Source: Syncephalastrum monosporum B8922
Taxonomy: Eukaryota; Mucoromycota; Mucoromycetes; Mucorales; Syncephalastraceae
DNA: 16,491 nucleotides
NCBI GenBank assembly: GCA_000697355.1
Contig: JNEN01000722.1
Span: 1-16,491, forward strand
Reading direction: 5' to 3'
Of this stretch, positions 1,779 through 16,491 are shown one piece after another. Numbering within the stretch: position 1 is the first letter of the stretch; every line of letters begins with the position of its first letter. Below the pieces are notes generated by a model. It saw nothing but the letters and a program-made list of their open reading frames with translations, did not search any database and had not been told where the DNA came from. Both the position numbers and the translations under genes were made by a program.

Positions 1779-4743
1779 ATGGCACAGAAGAAAGCAACCG
1801 TTTATATTCTCAATGCGAGCCCTTCCATGGGCAGAACGCTACCGAACCACGCCAAGTCACAATACGAAGAGTCTCAAAGCATCTTGTTAGGATTGCTTGA
1901 AGAAAAGGTATTCTTCTATCCTTACTATGATCTCTGGACGCGTCCATCCTCATTCGCGCGACGCACAGGCAATGGCGGGTCGGAAAAGCGATGTCGCCAC
2001 TGTCATTCTAGTGGGCACAGAAGGTAGTGTGAGTGTGCACGGCTGAGGCCCCTCCCTGACTTGGTGATAGAAACCTCAAACGTGCTGGCCGAGGAGGATC
2101 AATACCAGCATATCACCACCCTCGATGACTTCAAACCTCCTTCCGCAGCGCTTTTACGCACCGTAGCCAACACAACTGTCACAGAAGCCAAGGATGCAAC
2201 CGGAGACAGTAAGTGCGCCGCTCGTTGGCCTCATATCCTCAATCTATGTATGGATCACTTGACACCCCATAGTGGTTGACGCTCTCATTCTGGCCACCCA
2301 TATGATGAACGAGTTTTGTCGTCACCTCAAGTACGAACGCCGTATCGTCGTTCTTACCAACGGAGAGGACCCGGTTGACTGGACAGATAAAGATGAGATC
2401 ATACGAAGAATCGTTGACATCAAAACATCCGTGCTTGTTGTGTAAGCCGAAGAAATGCCACCGCATTGCTCGATTTACTTATTCCAGTTCTTAGCGGGCT
2501 CGGGGGTGCCAAGATCGAAAACACCAAGCAGAATCCTCATGTAAGCCGTTTTTTCGAAATAGACACTCCGTGCAGGCCCTAACTTCATCTGTATTCGCGT
2601 CCCTAGCTCGCCGAAAATACCGAAAACTGGAAGGCTATCGTCGAAGCGACCGAGGGCGATATGCTCTCCCAGGAAGAAGCGTTGCACGAGTTGCACAATT
2701 TCAGACCCAAGGTCGTCAGGCCCACTCCCATTTTCCGAGGGTTTCTGACTCTCGGTGATACCTCACACGTGAATGATGCCGCACTTTCGATCAGTGTTAC
2801 CATGTACGTGACAACGATGGTGCAACGCCCGCCGGGAAGCAAGAAATATTCTGCCTTGTCCAACCAGCCTGCCAAGGAGACCGGCACACACACCGTGAAC
2901 ACCAAGAGAGAGCACAAGGTCAAAAACAAGCCCATCGCCGAAGAAGAGCGACCGGAGGGCGAGGCTATACCAGACGCAGATAATCTCGAGCAGGATCAGC
3001 CAGACGAAAAGGTGGATGAGAGCACCATCGTGTCCGCTGGCGTATTTGGCAAAACCTTAGTCCCCATCGGTCCTGAAGAAGAAGAAGTGCTGAAACTGAA
3101 AGCAAGGCCAGGCATGGAGATCCTGGGACTTCTCAGTGCGGACGCCGTGAGTATACACACATGTAGGGTGTAAATGAGGGCTTATATGCTCCATCCTAGG
3201 TACCTCGAGATTATTTCCTCGGACAGGTCTATGTCCTTACACCAGGTACATTTAAACCGATGGCATCCGGCACTGCGCTCTCATCCTTTGCGCGCTGTTT
3301 GGACGAGAAGAATGCTGTTGCTTTGGTGCGCTATGTTTTCCGGAACGACACTCAGCCCAAACTCGGTGTCCTCTTCCCGCACTTTGAGGAAAATGTCGAC
3401 GTGCTGCATTTCATACAGGTGAGTCCACTGCGGGATATAGGACAAATTAAGCTGATGACAGGATATAGGTCCCTTACAATGAAGATTTACGTATGTTTGG
3501 ATTCAACTCGCTTGATCGGGTGGTCTCCACTTCAGGAAAGGTCGTTGACCGAGATCACCCGCTCTTGCCAACCCAAGAGATGGAGGAGCTCATGGACCAG
3601 TTTGTGAGCGAAACTAGCATGTATGATCCGACCTCAGGGTAAGTTTGGTTTTCATGCCACCCTGACGACTTTGTTGATACCATGTTCTAGGGAAGAGTAT
3701 CTGAGACTGGATGAGACCTATAATCCGATGCTGTGGCGGGTCGAAAAAGCTATCACAACGCGTGCGCTCAATGAAGCAGCGCCTATCCCGGAACTGGACG
3801 ACCGGTTGAAAGCGCAGCTGAATTTCCTGCCGGTTTTGCCCAACAGCAAAGAGGAGGGGTTGACTCAGAAACTCAAGGACGTCTTTAACGTGAAGAAAGG
3901 TACGCTGTGGCACATGCGGATGAATCGCAGAGGTGTAACCACTATCCTATGTATAGCTGCACTGAAAGAAAAACGAGGCTATGGAAAAGGCAACGAGGGA
4001 CAAACGGCAGGCGCTGCCGACATGGATGTGGATGAAATCGTCAAATCCAAACGTGTCAAGACAGAACACGAAACAGATTACAATGCAGCCATCGAGTCAC
4101 TGGTCGGAAAAGACGTCCGACAGGTATCCAGCCTCGACCCCATCGGGTCCTTTAAGGCTATGGTCAACAATACAAAGGAGGACTTGATCACGACAGGTAA
4201 CCCCAAGTGAGCATTACCCGGTTATATCCGGACTTACATTACTTTTAAACAGCTGTGGAGCAAATGGGCAACCTGATTATCGAGCTTGTGACCACATCGT
4301 TTGCTGACCAACACTATGGTAAAGCGCTCGAGTGCCTAAAGACTGTACGGTCCACATCGGCCGAAGAGAACGAATCCGATACTTTTAATGGTTTTAAGCA
4401 CCGACTCAAATCCAAAGTGGACCCGGGCAATCCCAAGTCGCGTCGCCTTGACTTTTGGGAGATGCTCAAGAAGGAAGACGTGACATTGATTTCCAAAGAG
4501 GAAGCTGAGGACAGCGACGTGAGTCCTGAGCAGGCCAAAGAGGTAACGCATATAAGCATAGGATGTCATTCGAGTTGGCTCAATCCATGACTTAGTTTCT
4601 GGAAGCGGCCACCGCGACAGCTCCGGAGCCGGAACACACTGCAGAAGGCGAGGAAGGCGACGAGGATGATCTGGTAAGACAGAAATATGTTTGTCTTTTT
4701 GCTTGTACTAATGCCGAAATAGCTTGCTCAAATGCTCGAGTAA
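1779..4743 (+). CDS. KU80: Ku80, DNA double-strand-break end-binding subunit (NHEJ), 13 exons
   Basis: Nuclear partner of Ku70 that threads onto broken DNA ends and recruits the non-homologous end-joining ligase. Exons deduced: 1779-1907, 1969-2023, 2071-2208, 2273-2441, 2495-2540, 2607-3146, 3200-3418, 3469-3638, 3691-3899, 3957-4196, 4253-4542, 4596-4673, 4723-4743; joined they give exactly 767 residues, close to usual Ku80 length. All 12 introns are GT-AG, 47-66 nt. Visible blocks: N-terminal vWA fold (ATVYIL, then AGRKSDVATVILVGTEE and EEDQYQHITTL), the RPKVVRP entry to the beta-barrel (~212-218), GKTLVP, VPRDYFLGQVYVLTPG, VRYVFRNDTQPKLGVLFP, LDRV, then the helical C-terminal domain. An acidic, charged insert lies at ~265-330. 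The intron at 3900-3956 is 57 nt with no in-frame stop, so retention is possible. The tail is EEGDEDDLLAQMLE. Family assignment is certain; exon 2/3, 4/5 and the last exon rest on similarity and frame. Confidence 0.93.
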
Positions 4744-8129: not shown

Positions 8130-10258
8130 TTAGTAGCTGGAGTGCAGCTGTTCCATGTCTTGCTCCGAGTAGCCAAGCAAGGTCAGCACGTATTTCAAGC
8201 TCTTTTGGTTGATGCGCGAAGGAGCCTGCTCCTGCACGCGCGGCTTGGCATTGAACGCGATACCCAGCCCAGCCTTGTTCAGCATCCACAAATCGTTGGC
8301 ACCATCACCTACGGCAATGACCTGCTCGGGTGTCACGCCCTCGGCCTGGGCAATGACGTCCAAGAGCTCAGCCTTGCGGATACCGTCGACAATCGGACCC
8401 ACGGTCTCGCCCGTCAGGGTCAGGCCATCCCAGGAGACTTTAAGCTAATGTTGCCCTGGATAAGTAACCCAATGTTTGTTTCCTTCGAATTGGGGTATGT
8501 TTTTACCTGGTTAGCAAACGCGTAGTCCAATCCCAGCTCGGCCTTGACGTAGTTGGCGAGCGGTATGAAACCACCTTATCGTATGGTATGGAAAGGAGAA
8601 AACGGAGGTTCAGTCTTACAAAGTTAACAACGGCGCAGATTTAGGCATACCGCTAATGACAGCCAGCTTGAAGCCGAGCTTCTTGAGAGCACGGCACAAG
8701 AAGCGAGCACCTTCGGTAAATGTCAAGACTTGTTTGACCTTGTCAATGACACTGACGCTTGTGCCGTTCAATAGGGCAACACGGCGACGCAGCGACTCCT
8801 TGAAGTCAATCTCGCCGTTCATGGCGGCCTCGGTAATGGCCTAAGTGAGAAACACGTGAGATAGGAGATCCTCTCTGCGACCCTGAATCGAATACTTACG
8901 GCCACTTGGTCGACCACACCGGCATAGCGGGCAATTTCATCAATCACCTCTTGCTGAATCAGAGTGGAATCCATATCAAAGACGACAAGACGCTTGTTCT
9001 TGCGGAAGACGTCATCCGGCTGCAGGGCGATATCGGTCAAGTTCTCGGCAGAGAGCTCAAAGAGGTCGGTACGGAGCTTGTTCATGTCGACCGTGTTGGG
9101 AATGGAGAGGCGGAAATCGGCGCAAGACAGAATAGTGCCGTCCTTGTTGAGACGCGAGAGCTTCTCGACCGAGATGCGGTACTTGAGACAGAGCTGGGTC
9201 CACCCGTTCAAGAAGGCGGGCTGGATGCCGTTCTGGTTGAGGATACTGGCGGCATACTTGATACGGCCCGAGTAAGGGGCTTCCTCCAGCGAAGGCGGCA
9301 AGTAGATCTCGCTGACTTCTTCGTTGGCAGGCTTCGACTTGGCCTGTTCTGGTGTCTGCTGATGGTGGCGCACCGAAGGCTCGAGCGCCTGCGTGTCGGG
9401 CACATCAAAGGTCAGGGCAGCATCCCACTTTTGGGCGGCGTCGGCCAGGTCGCGGAAGATGGCGACGTTATCGGAGCGCAGGGTGATGAGGACACCAAAG
9501 GTGACATTGTGGTAGAGACGCGACAGCATGCAGTCGTTGATATCGCAGGGGTGGCGGGCCAGGCACTCGAGAACGGCGCCAATGATATCGGTACCATGGG
9601 GACCGGCCATGGAGACGAGCACCTTTTGGTTGGGACCGACCAGGGTCGGAGGCAGAACGCTTGAGGGCATGAGCTTCTGCTGCGAGCGGGAGCGCAGCAT
9701 GGCAGGCGAGGCTGGGGCCAAGAGCAAGTCGTGGGGCTGCACCTGCTGCTGCTGGCTCAGACGCTCCATGACGGTCTGTTTGAGCTTGGACAGGTCCTCG
9801 GCTCGGACGAGGGGCAGCGTGGCCACGCGGCGCAGACACGGTTCCGAGACGGACAGACCCGAGTGGCGGTCGTTCTTCTTGAGTATCTTGGTGATACCGG
9901 TGTAGTTGAGAAAGACAAAGCGCTCGAGGGTCAGGATACGCTGCAGGAGGGGCAGGGGCTGACTGTCATCCTTGAGGAGCGAAGCCAGGCGCTGGGACTC
10001 CTGGTCAAAGAAGTTGGACGCGCGCTGGATATCAGCCTCGAGGGCGTTCAAGAAGCCGGTCTCGCTGTCCTGGAGACTGGCGAGGCGGGCGCTCATGACG
10101 TCTGCGAGGGCGGCATGGGCGGGCGGATCGGCCCGGATGGAGTGCTGGTAAACCGTGGTTTTGAGCAGCGTCTTGAGCTGTGTATAGTCGATACTGTGAG
10201 CGGCGTACTCGGGCGGGAGCTCGGCTTTGCGCTCCTCGAGATATTTGCCAAACTTCAT
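8130..10258 (-). CDS. SPX domain fused to ACT-like region and SerB-type phosphoserine phosphatase, 4 exons
   Basis: Likely catalyses O-phosphoserine to serine plus phosphate, the last step of the phosphorylated serine pathway. Exons (5' to 3'): 8900-10258, 8651-8840, 8507-8574, 8130-8444, giving 643 residues; introns 59, 76 and 62 nt. Residues 1-~135 are an SPX domain: canonical start MKFGKYLEER, then IDYTQLK (Y25, K29) and GITKILKKNDR (K124, K127, K128), the basic residues that bind inositol pyrophosphates in SPX proteins. A Q-rich linker follows, then an ACT-like segment (~211-280: KVLVSMAGPHGTDIIGAVLE) and a less certain second one (~317-400). The HAD phosphatase is complete: DMDST (D428 nucleophile, D430), SGGF (S516), K563 and GDGAND (D586, D590). 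All three later exons match SerB in order and phase. The SPX part and the first catalytic motif are in one uninterrupted exon, so the fusion is not an artefact of exon joining. It is divergent from the NFKBIL1-like gene, sharing 342 nt. Confidence 0.93.
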
Positions 10259-12550: not shown

Positions 12551-14126
12551 ATGTCCATCACATCCGAAGAATCTTTGACCGAACTGCAAGGCTCTCGTGA
12601 AGCAGTAAGTTCTGGCTTGCATAATCAAATTTTGCCTCCCTCTACCCTTTTACCCCCGCCTTCCCCTTTCTGGTATTCGACGCGTTCTTTCGCTTTCGAG
12701 CAAGACCGTGATCTGTTCTTATTGCCATTATTTAACTTGGCATACTATTTTTTTTTTACATGTTGGGCACGCGAGAGTGATCAACCACAGGAAAACCAAT
12801 CTCTCTCTCTTTTTTTTTCCTTCTTTTTTTGTTGTTTTAGATGCAACCGCTGTATGACCGTCTGCTAGCGCCCGTCTTCACAAGCAGCGCAGATGCCATC
12901 GAGTTCTGTCGAGAGGTGTGTGCTGAGTTCGGCTTCACGGTGAAACAAAAAGCGAGTGCTAACAAGGTAAAAAAACGCTTTTTTTTTTTTTTTTTTTGCC
13001 TGGGCGGAGGATGACACTCACACGCAAGGCACCTGCGTAGCACATTTACGTGTATTGCTCGCGCGAAGGCGTCGCCGAATCGGCACGGCAGAACAAGCAG
13101 CCGTACTGCCTGACACAGCAGCGCAAACGGCCGTCCAAGCGGTGCGACTGTCGGTGGCGCGTCGTGCTGACTGAAATCGACGCAGGCGGCTGGCAGTTTC
13201 GCCAGAGCAGCAACCCGGCTGCAGCCGAGCACAATCACTCCATGATGCGAGCCGACGAGCTGAAGAGTGCCAAAGGCTGGCCAGCCGAGGTACACCACCT
13301 CATCGCAAACCTAGCCACACGACAACCCGAGTGGTCCACGTCGGCTATTCGTGACGCAGTGCGTCGACAGTATCCGCACCTGGTGTGGAACGAGCGTCGC
13401 TTCTACAATCGATTAACGGACGAGCGGAAGCGTATACGGCAGCAAGCTGTGGTCGACCGTGTGCAGCGTCTCTTGATGCTCTCCTCGCAATTATGCGCCA
13501 TTGTCGCCGCCAACGAGTCATGGGCTACGTCGGTCCAGTTTGATATGTCGCGCATGGTCGACGGCTATCGTCAGCGACTTGCATGTGAGAACACCGACGA
13601 CGAGGACATTGTGGTCGATCTTGATCCTCAGGCTATTGTGCAAGAGCAAAGCACAAAAAAGAAGAAGAAAATGCAGCAAGAGCAGCATATCATAGTACCG
13701 AGCTATACGCTCCGCATACCTTGGTCCAAGAAGAGGAAGCATTCAGTGCCAGGTCCGTCAGCGATCCCCAACCAACCCCTGGGCGCGCCGCCTTCCCCAC
13801 CGGTTCCTACTCATTGGCTAGCGGCTCAACCCCCCATGATGGCTTCTGCTCCTCCTCCACCTCCACCACCATTGTCTCAAGCACTGCAACAGCACCAGCA
13901 GCACCAGGAACCACCCCAACAGCATCACCATCCTCCTCATCAGGTACCACCGGGTTCCTTACCGCCCCATCAGGCCCAAGACAAGCAACAGGACATGATG
14001 TCGTACCAGCATATGCAGTACCTGGATCCTAATGTGTTCCCGCCACCTAATATGATGCCGTACAATATCCACGACATGTACACCTTTGAAAGACAGCAGC
14101 ACCAGCAAAGACCTCCCCCGCCTTGA
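12551..14126 (+). CDS. FAR1-type (WRKY-GCM1 fold) zinc-finger protein with P/Q/H-rich tail, 3 exons
   Basis: Probable DNA-binding regulator of 421 residues. Exons deduced: 12551-12604, 12841-12966, 13041-14126; introns 236 and 74 nt, both GT-AG, phase 0. Residues ~28-130 carry the FAR1 pattern: ADAIEFCREVCAEFGF, YVYCSREG (C66), KRCDCRWRV (C95/C97), GWQF and HNH (H124, H126), the presumed zinc ligands. The fold is shared by FAR1/FHY3, MULE-type transposases and the fungal Aft iron regulators. No transposase (DDE) domain follows. Residues ~135-235 are helical; ~260-310 contain two basic stretches (TKKKKKMQQ and SKKRKH), likely nuclear localisation signals. The last ~110 residues are Pro/Gln/His-rich, like an activation domain. 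Exon 2 also starts with ATG, so translation from 12841 is an alternative. Targets are unknown. Confidence 0.8.
12979..12997 (+). repeat. Poly-T tract of 19 in intron 2 of the FAR1-type gene
   Basis: Nineteen T residues about 12 nt after the 5' splice site, far from the acceptor, so it is not the ordinary polypyrimidine tract. Length may be inexact owing to sequencing slippage. Confidence 0.8.
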
Positions 14127-14708: not shown

Positions 14709-16283
14709 TTATTGTTGTTGTAAGGCTGCACGGTCGCACTTTTCGATTTCAAGGCGAACCCAACGACAGAGGTCGGATGCACCGAGGCCGCGCTTGATGG
14801 TGAGCCAACCTTCCAATAGATCAAGGAGCAGGGCGCGCTTGATCTGCCTGAGCGACGGGTCATCGAGGAGTTCGCACACGCGCTGAACGGCGACCTCGAT
14901 ATGCGAATCGTTGAGGATTTTTCCGATAAAGGCAGCGCCCATGAGGTCAAAGCAGGCGGAGAGGCTGTGGAGGGTCAGGAGGCGAAGATCGTCGGATGGC
15001 TCGGATTGGGTGCGCGGTGCGTCGTGTTGGCAGACCACGGTGGCGTGGCAGACGGGGCCAAAGACACGGCTGTACAAGGACGCAATCGGGGCGTGGGCGG
15101 TGGGGTGGGCATGGCGGGGCACGGGATGGTGCGGGTGTTGAAAGGCAAGGAGCTTGTAGCCGGTGTATTCGAGGAAGGCCTTGATATTGTCCGCCAGGGT
15201 ATAGGTGATCTCGCGGCAGCAGGCGGGAAAGGCGGCGTCGAGACGGGTGAGGAGCCGCACCATCATGGCAGCCAGGGCGCGGTTGGCCGAGCTGGCGTGG
15301 GTGCAAGCAAGAGGCACCGGCGGCCGATTGACGGCTGCGACAAACACGGCGTGGTGGAAGATCACGTCGACGGCACTCCGGATGCGGTTGCGGATATCAA
15401 TGTCTTCGATCAAGACATACTTGTGTTTATATGAGGCAATGCCGCGCGTGATACGCTGGTGCAGCTGCTCCTCGCGGCACATCAGGTGCTTAAATTGCTT
15501 GTGGTTGTCAAACGCTGTGCTTGTCACCAGGCTGTTGGTATCATGGAAACCCGAAGACGGGGATGTGGAGGCACCTGGGAACATGGGTGTCGCAGTGTGC
15601 CCCTGATGGCGGTGGTGGTGGTGATGCTGATGGTGGTGCTGTTGACGCTGGTGCCGGTGTTGTGCTGCATGACGCCTTCTCCGCCCAAAGAAATCATTAT
15701 CCTGCGGAGGTATCGGGCCTGGCGCAGGTGGTGCAACGTCCCTCCCGCTTTCTTCCAATGCATCTTCTTGAATGTCCATATCCACCTGCTCATCCTCTTC
15801 CTCATCCTCCTCTTCCTCGTCTTCGCCTTCCTCCCCTTCTTCTTCGTCTACTAGTGCTTCGTCCTCGTCCTCGTCCTCCTCTTCCTCCTCTTCTTGCTCG
15901 TCCTCGTCTTCCGGCGGGGGTTCCTGGGCAACCGGCGGCAATTGCGGTGGTGGGCGATGCGGACTAGGGTCGAGTGGACTGGCAGTAGTGGAAGGCAGCG
16001 GAGTGCTCATCAGGCGGGTTTGCAGCGACAGTTGACGCGAGAGTGCTTCCAGGGCAACCAGCGAAGAGCGGCACTGGACCTTCATTATGGTCGTCTGCAG
16101 GTCAATCTTCCAGCGACGGTGAATGGTATGCATGGCAATAGTGCGGAAAGACCTCGACACTTCTAACAGCCGCCATAAGTCATGTAAGTCTAGGAACTCT
16201 TTGAGAATGTACAAGAGCAGCTCATTGGGGAGGCCCATAAGGGCACTTGCCGACGGATCGGCAGCCGCCAGCAGAGACAGCAT
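14709..16283 (-). CDS. F-box protein with acidic and histidine-rich segments
   Basis: Single-exon gene of 524 residues, likely a substrate receptor of an SCF ubiquitin ligase. Residues ~14-58 form the F-box (LMGLPNELLLYILKEFLDLHDLWRLLEVSRSFR), with the conserved LP, L-x-x-IL and W/R positions for Skp1 binding. Residues ~125-178 are almost all Glu/Asp, 201-204 are RRRR, and 205-228 are His/Gln-rich. The C-terminal ~260 residues are mostly helical (IDIRNRIRSAVDVIFHHAV, ALAAMMVRLLTRLDAAF, LTLHSLSACFDLMGAAFIGKIL, LLLDLLEGWLTIKRGLG) and presumably bind the substrate; I do not recognise leucine-rich or WD repeats. It ends LQQQ. The start at 16283 is the first ATG and places the F-box at the usual N-terminal position. 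Upstream lies a TATATATA stretch and a purine-rich leader (plus-strand view). Confidence 0.85.
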   Translation of the reverse strand: MLSLLAAADPSASALMGLPNELLLYILKEFLDLHDLWRLLEVSRSFRTIAMHTIHRRWKIDLQTTIMKVQCRSSLVALEALSRQLSLQTRLMSTPLPSTTASPLDPSPHRPPPQLPPVAQEPPPEDEDEQEEEEEEDEDEDEALVDEEEGEEGEDEEEEDEEEDEQVDMDIQEDALEESGRDVAPPAPGPIPPQDNDFFGRRRRHAAQHRHQRQQHHHQHHHHHRHQGHTATPMFPGASTSPSSGFHDTNSLVTSTAFDNHKQFKHLMCREEQLHQRITRGIASYKHKYVLIEDIDIRNRIRSAVDVIFHHAVFVAAVNRPPVPLACTHASSANRALAAMMVRLLTRLDAAFPACCREITYTLADNIKAFLEYTGYKLLAFQHPHHPVPRHAHPTAHAPIASLYSRVFGPVCHATVVCQHDAPRTQSEPSDDLRLLTLHSLSACFDLMGAAFIGKILNDSHIEVAVQRVCELLDDPSLRQIKRALLLDLLEGWLTIKRGLGASDLCRWVRLEIEKCDRAALQQQ

Positions 16284-16491
16284 TATGAGCTTTGTATATG
16301 TTTATATAGAGTAAAGCTGTGTGGTGTGGGAGTATATATAAAGAAGAAAAGAGAGAGAGAAAAAAAAAGGAAGGGCAAGCGAGGAAAAGGAAAAAGAGAG
16401 AGAAAAAGAAGGCGAAATAAGGGGTTAGCAGACACCAGACAGAGTGAGAAAGAGAGGGCCCTTTTTTTTCTCTTTTTTTCTTTTTTTTTTT
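16284..16491 (-). promoter_or_regulatory. Upstream region of the F-box gene
   Basis: Read on the minus strand this is a C/T-rich leader with poly-A near the window edge and a TATATATA element about 50 nt before the ATG (plus-strand 16332-16340). Pyrimidine-rich tracts before the start are common in fungal promoters. Confidence 0.5.

Follow-up and report, generated by a model that had tools for sequence, protein, structure and literature searches.

A SerB-family phosphoserine phosphatase carrying a predicted inositol pyrophosphate sensor in Syncephalastrum monosporum

The window examined here is a stretch of 16,491 nucleotides (nt), positions 1 to 16,491 of contig JNEN01000722.1, from the mucoralean fungus Syncephalastrum monosporum B8922. 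On its minus strand (10258-8130) lies a gene of four exons, whose predicted splicing yields a protein of 643 amino acids (aa). Judged by its domains, this product is a SerB-family phosphoserine phosphatase (PSP), with predicted enzyme activity, to which an SPX domain is fused at the N terminus (Table 1). Seven Pfam families match the protein at E ≤ 0.1, including SPX (43.6 bits, cut-off 27.8) and HAD (66.8 bits, cut-off 27). An earlier note on this DNA had proposed such a fusion, and it proved to be real, complete and conserved, forming one coding unit with 1,363 homologues at E ≤ 0.001. Exon 1 has exactly the uninterrupted length that had been claimed, and every residue that had been named is in place: MKFGK, Y25, K29, K124, K127, K128, DMDST (428-432), S516, K563, D586 and D590.

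With any unusual fusion one should consider an artefact of the gene model, that is, that the SPX and phosphatase parts are separate genes or were joined by local misassembly. That explanation is extremely improbable here and was rejected. The SPX domain, both ACT domains and the DMDST nucleophile motif share the open exon 1, so that the start of the enzyme is joined to its sensor without any splicing choice. Of 7,997 candidates scored in the whole-protein search, 1,363 count as homologues at E ≤ 0.001; the strongest has an E-value of 1.5e-296. Chance is thereby ruled out as the source of the architecture. Among the best 120 of the 1,363, which are those listed, 100 cover SPX, ACT1 and HAD in the same order (hereafter, the 100 homologues), the other 20 being short at one end. 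The splice junctions are also clean, with no insertion in any of the 100 homologues and gaps in one, none and one of them at junctions 1 to 3, respectively.

Table 1. Features of the SPX-ACT-ACT-SerB gene in the window (P0004 is a homologue for which a structural model was used)
Feature	Position	Strand	Basis or remark
Complete SPX-ACT-ACT-SerB coding gene in four exons (643 aa and stop)	8130..10258	-	predicted splicing, homologue alignment
Exon 1, 453 codons: SPX, ACT1, ACT2, HAD nucleophile	8900..10258	-	
SPX domain, residues 1-172	9743..10258	-	
Y25-K29 codons, two of three phosphate-binding-cluster residues	10172..10186	-	100/100 full-architecture homologues; AtSPX1 Y25, K29
K124-R131 codons, ligand-site K124, K127, K128, R131	9866..9889	-	AtSPX1 K136, K139, K140, K143 spacing
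Variable linker, residues 173-207	9638..9742	-	mean pairwise identity 0.29
ACT1, residues 208-288	9395..9637	-	Pfam ACT_6 31.0 bits (cut-off 23); beta-alpha-beta-beta-alpha-beta in P0004 model
GPHGTD loop of ACT1	9604-9587	-	
ACT2, residues 323-408	9035..9292	-	P0004 model; M. avium SerB2 alignment from model residue 323
HAD phosphatase start (residue 415); nucleophile D428 at 8977-8975	8900..9016	-	homologue alignment, TIGR00338
Intron 1, 59 nt	8841..8899	-	GT-AG
Exon 2, HAD cap region up to S516	8651..8840	-	
Intron 2, 76 nt	8575..8650	-	GT-AG
Exon 3	8507..8574	-	
Intron 3, 62 nt	8445..8506	-	GT-AG
Exon 4: K563, D586, D590 (GDGAND), stop	8130..8444	-	

The phosphatase itself can be assigned with some precision, as the NCBIfam equivalog profile for SerB, TIGR00338, matches at 270.6 bits (cut-off 144.15). 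In a 65-row alignment, which includes three rows without SPX, the residues of the DxDST, Ser, Lys and GDGxND motifs (D419, D421, S507, K554, D577 and D581 of P0004; D428, D430, S516, K563, D586 and D590 of the window protein) are invariant, as are E428 and R464 of P0004 (window E437 and R473). The latter two are the counterparts of E20 and R56 of M. jannaschii PSP, which we take to be its substrate-binding residues. We infer that the enzyme hydrolyses phosphoserine, yielding serine and phosphate. Inositol phosphates were considered as a substrate and are not favoured, given the SerB profile, the retention of the catalytic motifs and of the presumed substrate residues, and the fact that this is the sole SerB above the family cut-off in the 27.5-Mb genome. 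The next genomic match reaches 38.4 bits; this search scores single exons and best candidates only, so a second SerB divided into small exons is unlikely, if not strictly excluded.

The SPX part was modelled and searched against the PDB by itself, because the list of PDB matches for the full model was filled by HAD proteins; its model has the SPX helical-bundle fold. For AtSPX1, Y25, K29 and K139, together with K136, K140 and K143, are reported as putative contacts to inositol pyrophosphates (PubMed Central (PMC) article PMC7810988), and the window protein has counterparts at equal spacing in Y25, K29 and K127, with K124, K128 and R131. The phosphate-binding cluster is kept almost without exception (Y25 in 100, K29 in 100 and K127 in 99 of the 100 homologues), and so is the lysine surface cluster (K124 in 99/100, K128 in 100/100), whose third lysine is an arginine in the window protein; that position is basic in 99/100 (R in 86, K in 13). 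An alignment of the window SPX with 62 of the 100 homologues (63 rows) has ten invariant positions, namely Y25, K29, K33, L73, E112, K124, K127, K128, D130 and K160. Of the six contact positions, five are thus invariant, an enrichment with P 1.2e-6 against all 172 positions of the window SPX, or P 1.2e-3 when its K, R and Y positions (28) alone are counted, both values ignoring the relatedness of the rows. The domain is therefore one that keeps the ligand-site residues for predicted binding of inositol pyrophosphates.

The ACT region differs from what had been anticipated. The earlier note had seen a single ACT-like segment; an ACT domain is indeed present, and the P0004 model has two ACT folds N-terminal of the phosphatase, its alignment with 5jlp and 5is2 starting at model residue 210; Pfam finds the first of the two folds alone. 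TAL-effector chains in the PDB also matched the window protein and were set aside as an artefact of repeat-driven scores, with no passing stretch. The SerB2 enzymes of M. avium and M. tuberculosis likewise have two N-terminal ACT domains before the phosphatase, but they have no SPX domain. In M. avium SerB, contacts of L-serine with D17 and I126, at the interface of ACT1 and ACT2, have been proposed (PMC10564941). The residue of the window protein that aligns with Asp17 is His221, part of the GPHGTD loop, and this histidine is invariant across the 65 rows. The suggestion that the ACT part serves serine feedback is thus weaker than had been supposed: the domains are there, but the proposed serine contact is replaced. 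The ACT ligand may be serine bound in another way, a different small molecule, or none. In the fungal ACT-bearing SerBs examined, with or without SPX, this loop has the sequence GPHGTD or GKHGTD, and it is of the G-x-D-x-P-G type in the red-algal and bacterial rows; the fungal form may mark a changed ACT ligand in fungi. L-serine at the ACT domains is reported to alter the oligomer of M. tuberculosis SerB2 and to leave that of the M. avium homologue unaltered (PMC10564941).

When the architecture is surveyed on a phylogeny, as had been suggested, the fusion turns out to be widespread in early-branching fungi (100 of the 120 homologues listed). Mortierellomycota account for 33 of the 100, Mucoromycotina for 28, Zoopagomycota for 11, chytrids in the broad sense for 10 and Glomeromycotina for 6, with the remaining 12 coming from metagenome or SRA sources; group labels follow the organism names shown, and rows are sequence clusters rather than species. 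Rhizophagus (arbuscular mycorrhizal), Piromyces (gut fungi), Mucor and Rhizopus are among those with the architecture. A second search, with the part of the protein downstream of SPX and limited by length to about 178-565 aa, gave a Pfam SPX match in only 3 of the 120 rows listed. Short SerBs apparently without SPX occur in Lichtheimia (P0036), Circinella (P0035), Fennellomyces (P0033), Gigaspora (P0124), Dentiscutata (P0128), Racocetra (P0132) and Dimargaritales, most of them with a start Met near ACT1; further rows belong to Chytridiales, Rhizophydiales, Ascomycota, red algae and bacteria. None of the 120 matches listed for a profile of 11 Ascomycota SerBs bears SPX, the named rows being Ascomycota as far as names were recognised. 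The SerBs of ascomycetes, Chytridiales and Rhizophydiales have the homologous phosphatase domain, are SPX-less and show no ACT_6 in the precomputed Pfam lists. The SPX-less status is judged from protein models and may in some rows reflect a wrong gene start; Rhizopus microsporus P0032, R. stolonifer P0037 and Cunninghamella echinulata P0034 have linker-like starts and are probably truncated models. If the loss holds at the DNA level, the SPX-less relatives that keep the ACT-ACT-phosphatase part are natural comparisons for the role of SPX.

The history of the fusion was examined in an IQ-TREE phylogeny of 261 phosphatase-region columns and 78 rows (the window protein and 77 chosen from 229 proteins). 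It omits the three probably truncated models; the Lobulomyces row is unlabelled, and the rows labelled SPX-less include possibly incomplete ones, namely Entrophospora and Coelomomyces (longer starts) and Racocetra persica (partial). All 35 SPX-bearing rows fall inside one set of 46 rows (support 98/91). Over the whole tree five changes of the SPX label are needed, at least three of them forced by starred branches. Parsimony itself cannot separate gain from loss; since the bacterial and red-algal outgroups have no SPX, the tree reads as one gain followed by four putative losses, in Dimargaritales, Entrophospora, Gigasporaceae and the Lichtheimia-Fennellomyces-Circinella group. The window gene has this last group as its sister (98/95). 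Distances in SPX and in HAD among the 100 homologues and the window protein are correlated (Spearman 0.74, with 0 of 999 permutations as high; 0.71 for ACT1 and HAD), in keeping with a single fusion whose parts were inherited together. The branching of Ascomycota and of the SPX-less Bifiguratus and Calcarisporiella outside the SPX set is counter-evidence to a simple story. Several of these outside rows are long branches, and the species tree places the three groups differently from the phosphatase tree.

The putative losses bring up the possibility that the window protein is an ordinary SerB that tolerates an SPX tail of no present role. The enzyme is intact where SPX is apparently missing (Lichtheimia, Circinella, Fennellomyces, Gigasporaceae and Dimargaritales), but a vestige would decay, and the ligand residues are kept over Mucoromycotina, Glomeromycotina, Mortierellomycota, Zoopagomycota and chytrids. 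We regard a vestigial SPX as improbable.

The genome has 11 VTC matches, seven IPK exon matches and two PPIP5K exon matches, along with 27 matches to PF03105 (exons and fragments, this gene included). For the serine pathway, the serC_1 profile reaches 423.6 bits, below its cut-off of 443.6, and the best of the PGDH-like matches 191.1 bits, none being above the cut-off of 454. Given these matches, the inositol pyrophosphate signal and the serine pathway are probably both present.

We see an even chance that inositol pyrophosphates bound to the SPX domain set the activity of the phosphatase according to phosphate status, with either sign; within such ligand control, activation is slightly favoured over inhibition. 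When phosphate is ample, inositol pyrophosphates would fill the basic patch of SPX, and the ligand would break an inhibitory contact between the tethered SPX and either the ACT-phosphatase dimer of the same protein or a second SPX, thereby licensing serine synthesis; when phosphate is low, the SPX would hold the enzyme back. Dimerisation would be the task of the ACT pair, which may also convey an amino-acid signal. The activating sign is proposed because the precedents with data point that way: in the VTC complex the ligand is reported to break an inhibitory SPX-SPX contact (PMC10167327), and in fission yeast, inositol pyrophosphate toxicity is reported to require both the ligand site and the active site of Gde1 (PMC8749416).

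The opposite sign would make the enzyme a phosphate-source valve, in which ligand-bound SPX inhibits while phosphate is ample and starvation, by removing the ligand, opens the enzyme, phosphate being recovered from 3-phosphoglycerate during serine synthesis. Its probability is a share of that given to ligand control as a whole, and by itself it appears unlikely. Serine synthesis is among the pathways predicted to rise on phosphate limitation, since phosphate is freed (PMC7864628), ligand-bound SPX may activate or inactivate, with a sign expected to vary by protein (PMC7381174), and the sequence evidence supports either sign alike. Besides the activating precedents, however, 3-phosphoglycerate is reported to be virtually erased in fission yeast after 24 h of phosphate starvation, leaving little substrate (PMC11980565).

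Another alternative is docking only, with SPX bringing the enzyme to SPX proteins (e.g., the VTC complex) or to a site rich in inositol phosphates, catalysis being unchanged. The linker is variable, SPX-SPX contacts are documented in VTC (PMC10167327), and there are several VTC-domain matches in the genome; five invariant ligand-site residues would nonetheless be unneeded, unless docking depends on ligand. We consider this reading doubtful.

Several observations weigh against ligand-controlled catalysis. The SPX part is conserved more weakly than the phosphatase (mean pairwise identity 0.46 vs 0.82 among the 100 homologues), and, as the tree reads with the enzyme kept through several losses of SPX, SPX seems dispensable in some lineages, the nearest relatives of the window gene among them. 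The linker is variable (0.29) and in P0004 is predicted to be disordered, with a predicted local distance difference test (pLDDT) score below 50 at 180-201, and the predicted template modelling score of the whole P0004 model (pTM 0.64) gives no confident arrangement of SPX and phosphatase. Such variability makes a rigid interface less likely and favours control via oligomer contacts. As for the precedents, SPX domains do not touch in the reported cryo-electron microscopy structures of VTC (PMC10167327). According to the Gde1 authors, SPX-ligand binding may not be a strict requirement for catalysis, and a mutated ligand site in Vtc4 itself is reported not to phenocopy Vtc4 deletion (PMC8749416); a 2020 review described a regulatory role of the Gde1 SPX as then unconfirmed (PMC7381174), the genetic support, with these reservations, having followed afterwards. 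Homeostatic logic, finally, would favour inhibition by ligand over activation (PMC7381174, PMC7864628).

The known SPX proteins that resemble it include Gde1 and Vtc4. Gde1 is an SPX-ankyrin-glycerophosphodiesterase (GDPD), thus another enzyme, and neither the ankyrin nor the GDPD family is found in the window protein (Pfam, E ≤ 0.1). Vtc4 also has SPX attached to a catalytic domain, but it belongs to a phosphate-storing membrane complex, and there is no VTC domain in the window protein at the same threshold. Fission yeast Spx1, plant NLA (SPX-RING), PHO1/XPR1 (SPX-EXS), SPX-MFS, Pho81 and the stand-alone plant SPX proteins share the sensor fold and ligand residues; in the sources consulted, the outputs of Spx1, NLA, PHO1/XPR1, SPX-MFS and Pho81 are transport, ubiquitin or transcription, and none of those named is an amino-acid biosynthetic enzyme. 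Outputs described for SPX in this literature, as far as consulted, comprise the transport, storage and recycling of phosphate as well as protein degradation and transcription.

The earlier note knew of no described SPX-phosphoserine phosphatase. None of the papers listed from the open-access full-text PMC literature, judged largely by titles and abstracts, describes one, but the sequences themselves are already in NCBI and UniProt, where many are named phosphoserine phosphatase and others HAD-like protein. A text match to 'SERB' in PMC9403785 refers to a funding body. The parts are known, and the novelty would lie in an SPX-fused enzyme with amino-acid synthesis as its predicted output. With the sensor on an amino-acid enzyme that also frees phosphate, the flow of carbon towards serine, glycine and one-carbon units could follow phosphate status with no transcriptional step. 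This makes a link, open to testing, between two nutrient systems so far joined in phosphate-balance theory through flux alone. Phosphate status would, on the sequence evidence, be a likely direct control of serine synthesis in many early-branching fungi. A wider reading, to which we give somewhat less than an even chance, is that phosphate signalling by inositol pyrophosphates has serine synthesis as one of its direct outputs in non-Dikarya fungi: an ancestral, SPX-gated sole SerB would tie amino-acid and one-carbon supply to phosphate, with the gate lost in Ascomycetes and, separately, in several zygomycete and glomeromycete lineages.

The remainder of the window holds other loci. On the plus strand are a piece of a lysophospholipase gene (2-706; PLA2_B 25.6 bits, cut-off 23), a member of the mitochondrial ribosomal protein L20 family (1005-1502; 92.1 bits) and an open frame with a Ku70/Ku80 beta-barrel match (2607-3170; 32.7 bits), which is probably one exon of a longer gene. 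Farther along the same strand, a 361-aa open frame (13041-14123) has a FAR1 DNA-binding match below threshold (25.1 bits, cut-off 28.1) and is possibly transposon-derived. On the minus strand, a 530-aa open frame (14712-16301) matches an F-box-like family (31.4 bits) and contains a long low-complexity stretch of acidic character.
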